64,000 nt of DNA. It comes from Solimicrobium silvestre. Lineage in GTDB: Bacteria; Pseudomonadota; Gammaproteobacteria; Burkholderiales; Burkholderiaceae_D. This document shows, in pieces, positions 38,868 to 43,985 of the stretch. The notes under the pieces are model-generated. The model made no database searches. It was not told the DNA's origin and saw only the letters and a program-made list of their open reading frames with translations. Within the stretch, counting starts at the first letter, position 1, and the number at the start of each line of letters is the position of its first letter. The translations under genes were made by a program, and so were the position numbers. The stretch covers positions 85,498-149,497 of the forward strand of contig NZ_PUGF01000013.1 of the NCBI RefSeq assembly GCF_002976435.1, read 5' to 3'.

Positions 38868-39212
38868 ATGAAACATTCCAACCTATTGGCTGCGTTAATT
38901 ACTACAGCTGCTCTCTGCGCATGCGAAAAACCGATTGTCACACCTGCTCCTGCGCCTGCTCATGCGACCTCCCCCACCACTATAGTCATTGCCGGGCCCG
39001 CTGGCGCGACCGGAGCCACAGGAGCTTCAGGTGCTGATGGAAGCAATGGGGCGACAGGCAATACCGGCAACGATGGTGCAAATGGCAAAGATGGCGCTAA
39101 TGGTACTAATGGCGCAGCAGGAGCCACCGGTGCGACTGGAAATGATGGAAACAAAGGAGACACGGGCAAGACCGGCGGAGACACAGTTGTGATCGTTCCC
39201 GCTCAAAAGTAA
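38868..39212 (+). CDS. Collagen-like (Gly-X-Y repeat) lipoprotein
   Basis: A 114-residue exported protein. The signal sequence ends in the lipobox-like ALCAC (Cys19). A Pro/Ala linker follows, then about 20 Gly-X-Y triplets (residues ~42-104, e.g. [16 protein letters not shown] and [13 protein letters not shown]) and a short tail. Such low-complexity triplets form collagen-type triple helices on bacterial surfaces. The repeat tract is internally repetitive at DNA level and may vary in length. AAGGAT precedes the ATG. Confidence 0.85.
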
Positions 39213-40384: not shown

Positions 40385-40410
40385 TGCAAACCCAATGAAT
40401 CGTTGATGCT

Positions 40411-40470
40411 CAACTAGTAACCTGTAATGTGAAATGACTTGCAATCGTCGGGTCTATTAGCTGCGCGTAA
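40411..40470 (+). repeat. REP-like repeat copy 2
   Basis: AGTAACCTGTAATGTGAAAT followed by GACTTGCAATCG and GGTCTATTAGC, the same family as the copies at 34.5, 57.8, 58.4 and 60.8 kb. It lies between the convergent MBL and arginase-like genes. Confidence 0.85.
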
Positions 40471-40507: not shown

Positions 40508-41332
40508 TCAGGGTAATACTTCATTGAGCAGCTTGATGCAAGCCATCGCCGTCTTGTCATCGACGTCTTGCTCTGCGTGCCATGCAGACATCGATATTGC
40601 GACAATATTTTTACTACGCAAGCTCTGGAGCAGTGCCGTAATATCGGCATAGGTAGGCCCTTCTTTAACGTGGTATTTTAATGCCGGCATGTCTGCTTCA
40701 GCATCCAACACGTCCGTATCAAAATGAAGGTATAGGCGCTCACCCGGCACAAGGTGCAAGGCAACTTCCTGAATGGAGCAGCGGATAACGCCCGATTCAG
40801 CAAGCGCTTCCTTTTCTCCAGGATCCAAGTCGCGTGCGTCCGACAGAATGACTTGTTGTTCAGGATAAGGCGTAACACCTATCGCAGCTCGCAAGGCAGC
40901 AAATGTATCGTGGCTGTACTTCCTCCCATCAGATTGCCCCACCATCATTGCCAGTGGCATACCGCCAATGTACTGAGTCTGAGTTGTGCTATAGGTATGA
41001 AAATCACCGTGTGCATCGAGCCACAAGATTCGATCCGGCGCCTTGCCTGCCTGTTGCAGCCCGGCCAACATACCGAGTGTGCTAACACAATCACCAGCAA
41101 TGCAAACAGGCACAGCGCCGCTTGCCACAACGGCCACCACGGCATTGGCAAGATTTGCATAAACTTTACCCATACGACGCATCTGTTCATTCGCATCAGG
41201 AATAGATACCTCGTGGAGATCAGGAATTGCCAACACTTCCCACGCGCGGGAATCAAGGTCACGCACACGAGAGAGCCTATCCCGACGCTGACCCATTAAA
41301 TATGGAACGAGCAAGTGGTTTTTCATATCCAT
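40508..41332 (-). CDS. Arginase/agmatinase-superfamily protein
   Basis: 274 residues with the ureohydrolase metal-ligand pattern: LWLDAHGDFHT (D106, H108, D110) and HFDTDVLDAE (D205, D207). The first motif, normally GGDHS, reads AGDCVS, so Cys82 replaces the histidine ligand. One manganese site may therefore be altered. Related divergent members hydrolyse guanidino or formimino compounds. It overlaps the sulfotransferase gene by 10 bp as the third gene of a tight operon. Confidence 0.8.
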   Translation of the reverse strand: MDMKNHLLVPYLMGQRRDRLSRVRDLDSRAWEVLAIPDLHEVSIPDANEQMRRMGKVYANLANAVVAVVASGAVPVCIAGDCVSTLGMLAGLQQAGKAPDRILWLDAHGDFHTYSTTQTQYIGGMPLAMMVGQSDGRKYSHDTFAALRAAIGVTPYPEQQVILSDARDLDPGEKEALAESGVIRCSIQEVALHLVPGERLYLHFDTDVLDAEADMPALKYHVKEGPTYADITALLQSLRSKNIVAISMSAWHAEQDVDDKTAMACIKLLNEVLP

Positions 41333-42558
41333 CGTTCTGAATTCATCGTGTATCCCAGCGTGTCCATCATGGAGCGTACTTCTAGCCTGGTTCCAAGCTG
41401 CATTAATTGATCCTCACGACGTTTCCATCGTGTCGTGCCAGGCATCTCAGTCGCCATCGTTACCGGCAACGCTTCCGGAACTTGGAGAGAGGCGAGGCCA
41501 AGGTAGTTCGTTATTCTCCGCACCGTAGCTGTCGGGTCCATCAAAAAACTCTCAAATGCAATCTGAAGTGCCGGAACGCCTGTATTTAAAAACTCACGAT
41601 GGGATGATATCCATTGATTCAGGCAAATGTCTTCCAGATGTGCGCCAATATAATTTCGCCAGTTCGGAGGAAGGTCGAATTTCCACCAATTTTTGCCAAA
41701 CGGCACGGCATCGGAATAACCTTTGATATTCAATTTGAACCCAGTCTGCCCCAAATTGTGGGAAAAAAAACCGACTGGGGACAACCATCCGTCCATCAAC
41801 CCATTCACAGTTTGTGCATAGCCTCGGGTTAGATGAATATATTTAATGTCAGCATTCGGAAAAAGCTGCTCGTACATGCCAACTCTGTAGACATCAGTCG
41901 ACGTTTTGAATAGCAGCATTTTTTTGTCAGCATCGCCGTCCGAGAAAGGACGTCTGTTACGCCGTGGCACAACAAACGGCGGCTCTTCAATTTTGAATGC
42001 TTCGTCAAAATATCGGCCTGCTCCCACCTTTTTCTCGCCATCGTAGTAAGCCATTCTCCATGGTTCATCACTAAATATCCTAGAAAGAACATGGTGTTGC
42101 AGGTGCCTTTCTTGAGGGTAGCGATTCACGCAATCTTGAGTAAGGGTGACGTCAAGCGCTTGCAATAGTTTTTGATGCTGGTTTAAATCGGAAAACTTGG
42201 CGGGGAACTGCATGACTAGCCGCTTTGCCCATTGCTTCTTGAGTTGCGTGGGGGAGGCCTTATCTGCCAACACGGTCAGATTATCGAATATATTATCAAC
42301 CAACTCGCTTAGATTCGATAACACGCTCAACGCATCGCTGTCTGAATTGAATCCGAAGCCGTTTCCCGTCAAAGAGAGAAATGGTTCAATCTCCCCATCC
42401 ATAGAGGCGATATCGCTATGTGAGGAGAGAACCTTTGTCACCAGACTTGATCCAGATCGTGGGCTAGCCACAATCACTGCCACATGTTTGACCGCTGCCC
42501 CCAATTCAACATGGGGTATATCGCGCATTATGTTAACTGCGTCGATAAGCGTCCTCAT
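41323..42558 (-). CDS. Sulfotransferase-family protein
   Basis: 411 residues. The PAPS 5'-phosphosulfate loop appears as ASPRSGSSLVTKVL (31-44), and the 3'-phosphate-binding region is likely near HLTRGYAQTVNGLMDG. The length and late ALQIAFESFLMDP segment fit bacterial small-molecule sulfotransferases (Sulfotransfer_3 type). It transfers sulfate from PAPS to a hydroxyl or amine acceptor. It overlaps the methyltransferase by 4 bp and the arginase-like gene by 10 bp, indicating one coupled pathway of unknown product. Confidence 0.82.
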   Translation of the reverse strand: MRTLIDAVNIMRDIPHVELGAAVKHVAVIVASPRSGSSLVTKVLSSHSDIASMDGEIEPFLSLTGNGFGFNSDSDALSVLSNLSELVDNIFDNLTVLADKASPTQLKKQWAKRLVMQFPAKFSDLNQHQKLLQALDVTLTQDCVNRYPQERHLQHHVLSRIFSDEPWRMAYYDGEKKVGAGRYFDEAFKIEEPPFVVPRRNRRPFSDGDADKKMLLFKTSTDVYRVGMYEQLFPNADIKYIHLTRGYAQTVNGLMDGWLSPVGFFSHNLGQTGFKLNIKGYSDAVPFGKNWWKFDLPPNWRNYIGAHLEDICLNQWISSHREFLNTGVPALQIAFESFLMDPTATVRRITNYLGLASLQVPEALPVTMATEMPGTTRWKRREDQLMQLGTRLEVRSMMDTLGYTMNSERWI

Positions 42559-43259
42559 ATTGCGCTCTCTAACTCCATCCTTTTGATAAGGAAAACAGTG
42601 AATTCAGCATATCCGGCCTTATCGACCTCCTTGGCAACAGTACTGCCCAGTGAGTGTACAGAAAAGCCAGCTGCCTTAGCGAGCGCTTTGATTTCTTTGA
42701 TCGCACCAAAATTAGCTTGCGAAAAATAGATGCGCCCATTCGGTTTCAAGTACTTACCTACCTCTGTAAAAAATCCGGTATTGGTCTTAAAATCCGTGTC
42801 CCATTGCGATTGAGCGACGATGTCATGCGCGGGTTTAATTCTAAACGGCAGGTTTGCCGTGATCACATCAAACTGATCTTGGCCGACCTGCTGGAATAGA
42901 CAGGACTGTTTAACTTCTACGACGTGCTCAAAGCCATGCTGCCTAACATTATATTTAGCACTCCTGATCGCGGACGGGTTGACATCAACAGCAACAACCC
43001 TGCCAGCCCCCTTATAGCAGGCAAAAATAGCAATGACGCCAGACCCGGTGCCAACATCCAACACGCTCTCACCTGGATTAATGTGAAAATTATTCACTAG
43101 CGGATGGCTGTCCGCAAAAGGCAAGAATGTGCCGGGGTAAACTCGAAATTCCTTGCCAAGATACTGAATTGCTTTCCCTGATCGTGGTAACGCCTTGATA
43201 GCTTCCTGGCGTTCTTGTTGCCATAAATCTGTTCTCTCTAATAAAGATATGTTATCCAT
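42555..43259 (-). CDS. Class I SAM-dependent methyltransferase (PrmC/HemK-like fold)
   Basis: About 234 residues. The SAM-binding motif I is VLDVGTGSGVIAIFA (67-81), with VVAVDVNPSAI as motif II and ANLPFR at the position of the (D/N)PP(Y/F) motif of N-methyltransferases, with Leu for Pro. I chose the ATG at 43259 because of an upstream AGGACGG; the frame is open to 43301. It is the first gene of the overlapping methyltransferase-sulfotransferase-arginase operon. The acceptor is unknown. Confidence 0.82.
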   Translation of the reverse strand: MDNISLLERTDLWQQERQEAIKALPRSGKAIQYLGKEFRVYPGTFLPFADSHPLVNNFHINPGESVLDVGTGSGVIAIFACYKGAGRVVAVDVNPSAIRSAKYNVRQHGFEHVVEVKQSCLFQQVGQDQFDVITANLPFRIKPAHDIVAQSQWDTDFKTNTGFFTEVGKYLKPNGRIYFSQANFGAIKEIKALAKAAGFSVHSLGSTVAKEVDKAGYAEFTVFLIKRMELESAI

Positions 43260-43297
43260 TTTAATCACCGTCCTATAAATGCAGTCATACGAAATAA

Positions 43298-43317
43298 CCA
43301 CCAGCTTAAGCTGGTGG
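43298..43317. repeat. 20-bp perfect palindrome followed by TTTT
   Basis: Perfect self-complementary CCACCAGCTT/AAGCTGGTGG, then GGTTTTGC. It lies in the upstream region of the methyltransferase operon with no plus-strand gene to terminate. It may be an insertion-sequence end hairpin or an attenuator-like element. Confidence 0.5.
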
Positions 43318-43431
43318 GTTTTGCGTTACCAGAACCCGTTAAAAGCAGTTCATCTGTAACGCTCTTTATTCCCACGCATCGTCTACCCACCAACCAGGTA
43401 CAGTCACCTTAAGCGTAGCGCGAGGTAAAAG

Positions 43432-43710
43432 TGTCACTTCTACGAGGGTAAATGTGTCAATTCAATGAGGGAAAAAGAAAAAGTGTCACCAAATTTTTCT
43501 CCCCCCGAATAGTGAGGGTTTTTTGAGTCGAGTTAATTTTTGACTATACGCTTCGAAGACCCGTATGCCACGCGGCCTGGATGCATTCATTGCGGTTTGG
43601 AATGGTAAATTGCTCATGATTTCAGCAACTTACATCAACTTGTGTTAATTCAAAGCTCCGAATTGACAGGTTTTCTTTGCTATGTTGTGAATTGACACTT
43701 TTGCCTGGTT
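43432..43710. mobile_element. Insertion-sequence end debris with repeated TGTCA motifs
   Basis: Three direct copies of a GAGG-x-AAA-x-GTGTCA motif (about 43432-43449, 43444-43466, 43467-43490) face two inverted copies, AATTGACAGG and AATTGACACTTTT (43659-43672, 43689-43701). Multiple subterminal repeats of this kind are typical of IS21-like elements. No transposase frame survives in 43302-43985, so the element is a solo or collapsed remnant. The rest of the interval shows no convincing gene. Confidence 0.45.
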
Positions 43711-43985
43711 TGCTGCAAGGGGAAATGTCTCACTATGCCGAGACCATAAGAAGAAATGAGGAAAAAATCGGTGACACATTCACCTTGCGCTACGTCAAGC
43801 CGCGCACGACTACCGATATTGTGACGGATGCATTGATGGTAGCTGGGTTTCGCCTTAGGCCGAACGCTAGTTTGATGCGCTGCGGTTGGTGGTAGCAAAT
43901 TAGCATTAAGCAATGATGCGCTCAATGGCGGCGAGCTCCTGATTCACGTCAAGAAATCAGTTCAATGCAAGCCGCCCAACGCCCC

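Follow-up and report, generated by a model that had tools for sequence, protein, structure and literature searches.

Three genes on the minus strand of a Solimicrobium silvestre contig (NZ_PUGF01000013.1), encoding a methyltransferase (MT), a sulfotransferase (ST) and an arginase-family protein (ARG), form a conserved operon and are not three chance neighbours. They lie in a stretch of 64,000 nucleotides (positions 85,498 to 149,497 of the contig), hereafter the window, in whose own numbering its features are given. MT (42555..43259), the first gene, encodes a class I S-adenosylmethionine-dependent methyltransferase of 234 amino acids (aa); it overlaps by 4 bp ST (41323..42558), which encodes a sulfotransferase of the 3'-phosphoadenosine 5'-phosphosulfate (PAPS) type of 411 aa, and ST overlaps by 10 bp ARG (40508..41332), which encodes an arginase-family (ureohydrolase-type) protein of 274 aa. 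This layout had been described in an earlier note made from the letters of the window alone, and the three frames were confirmed to be open. On our best reading of the sequence comparisons, the genes would form a mobile operon that tailors a sulfated small molecule derived from arginine and perhaps used as a signal. That the three products jointly convert an arginine-derived guanidino compound to a sulfated small molecule, which is sensed in some relatives by a linked sensor, is a proposal to which we give slightly less than an even chance.

Conservation and distribution of the MT-ST-ARG operon

The operon was followed through 45 named loci, obtained by scanning a single genome of each species with an ST alignment and therefore all ST-bearing; genes next to ST were located by tblastn with named queries. 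MT, ST and ARG, whose neighbourhood the earlier note had suggested looking for in other genomes, were found together in 43 of the 45 loci, and MT was full-length in 42. Among these 43 loci, the spacing between ST and ARG is -4 bp in 26, -10 bp in 16 and +31 bp once. At one locus (L026), ARG is truncated by the end of the contig.

The 45 loci are mainly from Burkholderiales, and most carry the label Oxalobacteraceae or Sphaerotilaceae. Three come from metagenome-assembled genomes (MAGs) of Patescibacteria (L009, L011 and L026); all three carry ST and ARG, and one has a full MT. L009 and L011 belong to different MAG sets and to genomes of 1.1 and 1.4 Mb, their surroundings are non-proteobacterial-looking by eye, and the two are sisters with 100/100 support in the MT, ST and ARG trees. 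These observations argue against contamination.

Within the genus (5 genomes), ST was found in the window's own genome only. The family survey gave ST in 15 of 294 genomes and 5 of 44 genera, and the phylum sample in 1 of 398 genomes, again the window's own. Trees of MT, ST and ARG were built from 44 rows each, leaving out L026 and L035, which are without MT. Well-supported clades agree by eye across the three trees; the deep branches are unresolved and the placement of the window's proteins is unsure. This patchy distribution and the agreement of the clades are consistent with the three genes having been transferred and lost together. The earlier note had taken the operon for a transferred cassette, pointing to debris of an insertion sequence upstream. 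The distribution fits such a transfer, whereas the supposed debris is no evidence for it: segment 43260-43985 contains short inverted repeats, and at E<=0.001 nothing else in the genome matches it apart from its own hairpin on the opposite strand.

At two Massilia/Duganella-type loci (L041:12666-14033 and L017:12079-13530), an FAD/NAD(P)-binding gene (PF13454) lies 3' of ARG. This gene, a penicillin-amidase neighbour and a TolB-like neighbour (by eye) were set aside as operon partners, being lineage-specific.

ARG differs from arginases at three catalytic positions

The family labels that the earlier note had given to the three products hold by their Pfam scores: ARG reaches 84.4 bits against the Arginase profile PF00491 (cut-off 22), ST 41 bits against Sulfotransfer_3 (PF13469, cut-off 27), and MT matches the class I methyltransferase profiles PF05175 and PF13847. 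The note had also raised the possibility of housekeeping orthologues. Among the families shown, none of the three reaches an equivalog cut-off; MT scores 68.9 bits against PrmC (cut-off 199.1) and 54.3 against PrmA (183.15), and ARG scores 85.2 bits against arginase (RocF, TIGR01229; 227.6) and 18.2 against agmatinase (174.3).

Alignments A1-A3 (23, 22 and 18 rows, including the window's protein) were hand-picked from the 120 matches listed per search, and A4 and A5 (71 and 62 rows) were taken from the same lists of 120; the totals were 1775, 550 and 606 matches. C82 of ARG, within a GDC motif, falls at the alignment position where arginases have their first metal-binding His. All 71 homologues share this Cys, just as they share D106, H108, D110, D205 and D207 (DxHxD and DxD metal motifs) and also H203, G123 and G124. 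Three substitutions thus set ARG apart: Cys82 for the first metal His, His203 for the Ser beside the Asp pair and Gly123 for the proton-shuttle His. The Cys, which the earlier note had put forward as a sign of changed chemistry, is a real substitution with a precedent in DcsB, the N-omega-hydroxy-L-arginine hydrolase of D-cycloserine biosynthesis. DcsB has Cys86 at this place and a second residue in common, His196; the two align with C82 and H203 of ARG. Titles of Protein Data Bank (PDB) entries name Cys86 of DcsB, and that of 7eul reads 'C86H-H196S mutant'.

Ordinary arginine or agmatine catabolism, with the three genes side by side by chance, would account for an ARG score above the Pfam Arginase cut-off. 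We regard it as highly improbable, given that ARG falls far short of the arginase and agmatinase equivalog cut-offs, that the three changed catalytic positions are invariant and that the operon is conserved.

In the Kerfeldbacteria locus L011, a gene for an MntP manganese efflux pump (PF02659; L011:12132-12665) directly follows ARG, which is in keeping with a manganese enzyme.

Relatives of ST in haloarchaea and the sulfate donor

Residues R34, G36 and S37 of the 5'-phosphosulfate loop of ST, and R245, are invariant in an alignment of 17 bacterial, phage and haloarchaeal rows. Searching the PDB sequences with ST itself produced no usable relative, and a PDB search with the ST profile gave short matches only, the best being to the P-loop of CurM/olefin-synthase domains. 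A match on a Streptomyces plasmid (H10), whose record is without annotation, covered 48% of ST.

Relatives of ST, at 27.7-31.1% identity, are found on haloarchaeal plasmids. At nine of nine such loci (L080, L081 and L083-L089), the ST relative is accompanied by cysC and a YqcI/YcgG gene, in eight by annotation and in the ninth by tblastn. The cysC product is an adenosine 5'-phosphosulfate (APS) kinase, the enzyme that makes PAPS. Full-length APS kinase matches were found in the window's genome (two) and in the Kerfeldbacteria genome of L011 (one), so that PAPS looks available in the window's genome. Use of PAPS by ST is suggested only indirectly, through the cysC neighbours of the nine haloarchaeal loci and the APS kinases of the window's genome. 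The Kerfeldbacteria genome, of 1.4 Mb (G688; locus L161), also has an ATP sulfurylase-like gene (by eye) 4 kb from that of its APS kinase, a pair that was unexpected in so small a genome.

Enzymes of the YqcI/YcgG family, DcsA included, are heme-dependent guanidine N-hydroxylases according to one report (PMC12866846). An operon specific to N-hydroxyguanidines, in which ST would O-sulfate an N-hydroxyarginine-like compound and ARG would hydrolyse it as DcsB does, could therefore be envisaged from the presence of this family and cysC beside ST relatives on all nine plasmids and from the match of Cys82, His203 and Gly123 of ARG to DcsB. We consider it unlikely: the Glu and Asn that DcsB has at its substrate places are changed in ARG, and no YqcI/YcgG gene (PF08892) was found in the 15 ST-positive genomes of the family, the window's own included, the same search giving 11 of 294 genomes overall and its control being positive in 2 of 14. 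Because of this absence, we do not regard the hydroxyguanidine version as established.

Relatives of ST on viral contigs

A first set of 11 viral contigs from IMG/VR carried ST relatives with 31-44% identity to the window's ST, and a viral profile brought the number to 17, 6 of them new. Duplicates are present among them (L075/L076 and L151/L152/L153, L153 being identical to L151). Within about 2 kb of ST, 16 of the 17 contigs have either a gene resembling arginine deiminase and dimethylarginine dimethylaminohydrolase (ADI/DDAH-like; 14 contigs) or an arginase-family gene (L148 and L150); the seventeenth, L152, is a 4.8-kb fragment that matches part of L151 identically and stops short of the relevant position. 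In the first 11 loci, the ADI/DDAH-like gene was located by tblastn downstream of ST, adjacent to it in 10 and two genes on in L078, and PF02274 was confirmed by Pfam in L069, L074, L077 and L079. The PF02274 gene follows an ADDT gene in L154 and lies upstream, about 1.6 kb from ST, in L151.

The arginase-like gene of L148 agrees with ARG at the Cys and the GG loop, at the His that precedes the Asp pair and at the two Ser of the SxS motif. In the arginase-like frame of L150 the GG loop, the His and the SxS Ser are present, and the Cys region is not covered. The window-type ARG profile had no match in viral contigs (two patterns), and phage arginase-like genes were seen only beside ST. The ADI/DDAH-like and arginase folds are unrelated; since they stand in for each other near the ST family, this interchange of guanidino-hydrolase folds is the strongest hint of guanidine chemistry. 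The genes that accompany ST relatives in haloarchaea and phages support the guanidino-type substrate proposed in the earlier note. After its arginase-like gene, L148 also has a short second arginase-like open reading frame (ORF; L148:7448-7924) with a CHDH motif by eye and no Pfam match.

The ST-bearing viral contigs (L069-L079, L148, L150, L151 and L154) are likely thymine-hypermodification cassettes, because they contain a match to 5-hydroxymethyldeoxyuridine (5-hmdU) DNA kinase (PF18748, in L148), ADDT (PF18724; above cut-off in L077, L079, L150 and L154, just below it in L148 and by tblastn only in L151) and thymidylate-synthase-like genes (L069-L076). L078 carries a gene for a Gp23-type capsid protein. 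The gene content suggests sulfated or arginine-derived DNA bases. No ST was found among the INPHARED phages.

As for MT, it is HemK/PrmA-like and carries an NLPF motif of the NPPY type, whose N-x-P-F pattern is invariant among 18 MT rows. Motifs of this type are used by nucleic-acid and protein N-methyltransferases. MT weakly resembles the MADS methyltransferase (82 bits across the methyltransferase fold) and some phage methyltransferases, and four weaker matches to it (25-39% identity) occur elsewhere in the window's genome. This motif would agree with a set whose target is a macromolecule, be it DNA, RNA or protein, much as its phage relatives likely modify thymine. So would the setting of the viral ST relatives, which lie beside ADDT genes or those resembling thymidylate synthase; L148 has both the 5-hmdU kinase match and the ARG-like gene. 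We judge macromolecule modification distinctly unlikely for the bacterial operon, as the sensor linkage described below favours a diffusible product; in addition, no ADDT was found in 8 ST-bearing genomes, a weak point since the search control gave no match.

A binding protein and histidine kinases are linked to the operon

Near the operon, 18 of the 45 loci have genes for an SsuA/TauA-type binding protein (NMT1) and histidine kinases, several of the 45 being cut by contig ends. The binding protein scores 116 bits against SsuA (TIGR01728, cut-off 163.5) and is thus related to this family without being a member. Ten of the 18 loci have the order kinase/receiver, MT, ST, ARG, binding protein, kinase. 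In L044 and L045 the sensor genes are downstream in the opposite orientation, and six Sphaerotilaceae-type loci have a more distant version of the sensor (30-32%), either upstream or downstream.

In the family survey the binding protein (E<=1e-70) was present in 33 of 294 genomes, namely 14 of the 15 ST-positive and 19 of the 279 ST-negative ones (Fisher p 3.8e-14, with no correction for kinship). The one ST-positive exception is the window's genome. Broken down by genus, the sensor accompanied ST in 8/8 ST-positive genomes of g41, 2/2 of g12, 3/3 of g33 and 1/1 of g6, and the sensor-positive genomes numbered 10, 3, 5 and 13 in these genera and 2 in g27, where none was ST-positive. The stretch was examined in 16 of the 19 sensor-positive genomes without ST: kinase/receiver, binding protein and kinase are together in 15, and the sixteenth has the binding protein and a kinase.

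It could also be that the binding protein and kinases respond to the sulfur or amino-acid status of the cell and act simply as regulators of the operon, whose product would be an ordinary secondary metabolite. Sensor genes without ST in 19 of the 279 ST-negative genomes would be expected in that case, and the nearest named relatives of the sensor are taurine and sulfonate binding proteins. The presence of the sensor in all but one of the 15 ST-positive genomes and its adjacency in varied arrangements are equally expected of a cognate receptor, so that these observations cannot distinguish between the two roles; we hold regulation by nutrient status to be somewhat unlikely. The linked sensor, like the phage and archaeal relatives of ST, was missed by the earlier note.

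Surroundings of the operon in the window

The operon is flanked by a metallo-beta-lactamase-fold gene downstream and a peroxiredoxin-like gene upstream. Its G+C content (0.483) does not deviate from that of the window (0.475). Just 3' of the operon, at about 40409..40461, is a dispersed repeat resembling repetitive extragenic palindromic elements; such a repeat had been reported here in the earlier note, and a search at E<=0.001 gave 13 more partial matches to it elsewhere in the genome. On the other side, the upstream intergenic stretch (43260..43985) contains, besides the short inverted repeats, the hairpin CCACCAGCTTAAGCTGGTGG at 43298-43317, just before MT, which has no other genome match at E<=0.001 and is possibly a terminator or the end of a mobile element. 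An ORF at 38868-39212 has collagen-like Gly-X-X repeats after a lipoprotein-like start (by eye). Scans of the window's proteins for defence systems and phage families gave nothing specific, and no match for ST or ARG.

Discussion

Several observations weigh against the joint conversion of an arginine-derived guanidino compound to a sensed, sulfated small molecule. Firstly, the substrate places of ARG have changed: the Glu at the guanidine place of arginases and DcsB, which we take to be E277, is replaced by Ala in 69 of the 71 homologues and by Ser in the other 2, and all 71 have His in place of the Asn that follows the DAHGDF-type motif. A guanidino substrate is therefore suggested by family membership. 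ARG also scores equally by sequence against DcsB and plain arginases (56.2 and 56.6 bits), and the YqcI/YcgG family is lacking in the ST-positive genomes. Secondly, the fold matches of ST are weak (best Foldseek E 1.5e-5, TM score by query 0.36), no APS kinase was found in the L009 genome and that of L026 gave a sub-cut-off match only, and the phage settings point to DNA modification and not to a free metabolite. Thirdly, MT looks dispensable, because L026 and L035 have ST and ARG without it and L009 retains a remnant of 75 aa. Finally, the sensor is nearby in only 18 of the 45 loci, its co-occurrence with ST is uncorrected for kinship, genus g6 has it in 13 genomes and ST in one, and the window's genome lacks a close version, a 31%-identical binding-protein gene lying beside a kinase on another contig.

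For the preferred reading, we infer a substrate, a sequence of reactions and a role as a signal as follows. MT would methylate a planar nitrogen. ST would transfer sulfate from PAPS to the same molecule, which derives from arginine, either at its guanidino (or hydroxyguanidino) end or at a hydroxyl. ARG, with its Cys-containing two-metal centre, would hydrolyse a guanidine or amidine C-N bond. The anionic product would then pass out of the cell and be perceived through the binding protein and a phosphorelay. A wider proposal, which we rate as rather doubtful, is that the operon is the bacterial branch of a pairing between a guanidine-directed sulfotransferase and a guanidino-hydrolase, DcsB-like or deiminase/DDAH-like and swapped in phages, giving sulfo-guanidine or sulfamate-type products; these might serve as a sulfated, arginine-derived autoinducer with its own binding-protein/kinase relay in Burkholderiales and as a sulfated decoration on thymine of phage DNA.

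If these proposals are true, guanidine-directed sulfation would be a recurring chemistry across bacteria, haloarchaea and phages, and the Cys/His arginase site known from DcsB would have a second natural setting. The binding protein and kinases would offer a ready receptor for fishing out the product, and some phages would be predicted to carry sulfur-bearing or arginine-derived thymine modifications. Among the matches listed from the open-access literature, in the portions of those texts that were available, neither an MT-ST-ARG operon nor a sulfotransferase-bearing thymine-hypermodification cassette is described.

Comparison with known systems

ARG has in common with the arginase RocF the fold and the Asp/His metal-ligand positions, except the first His; it differs in that this His is Cys, the proton-shuttle His is Gly and the guanidine Glu is Ala or Ser. 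With DcsB (PDB 6lug and others), to which it is about 20% identical, it has the Cys, the His and the GG loop in common. At the substrate places DcsB has Glu and Asn, whereas ARG has Ala or Ser at position 250 and His112; ARG was not filed as DcsB because these two residues are not kept. The best fold matches of ST are the sulfotransferase domains of CurM and the Synechococcus olefin synthase and the tyrosylprotein sulfotransferases (E 1.5e-5 to 1.9e-4). An RSGSS-type 5'-phosphosulfate loop is common to ST and these proteins, but identity to their chains is 11-14%, the TM score by target is 0.41-0.53 and ST is about 80-140 residues longer.

With regard to pathways, the haloarchaeal ST relative adjoins cysC and a member of the YqcI/YcgG family, to which the enzymes of the AglA, DcsA and GntA pathways belong (PMC12866846). 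The phage hypermodification cassettes resemble the operon in combining ST relatives with ADI/DDAH-like or ARG-like genes; they differ in having HMUDK/ADDT, whereas the operon has neither and contains MT instead. In the LuxP-LuxQ system, a periplasmic binding protein acts with a hybrid histidine kinase. The linked sensor resembles this type of sensing in its arrangement of binding protein and histidine kinase; it differs in that the binding protein is SsuA/TauA-like and that the synthase would be the linked operon.

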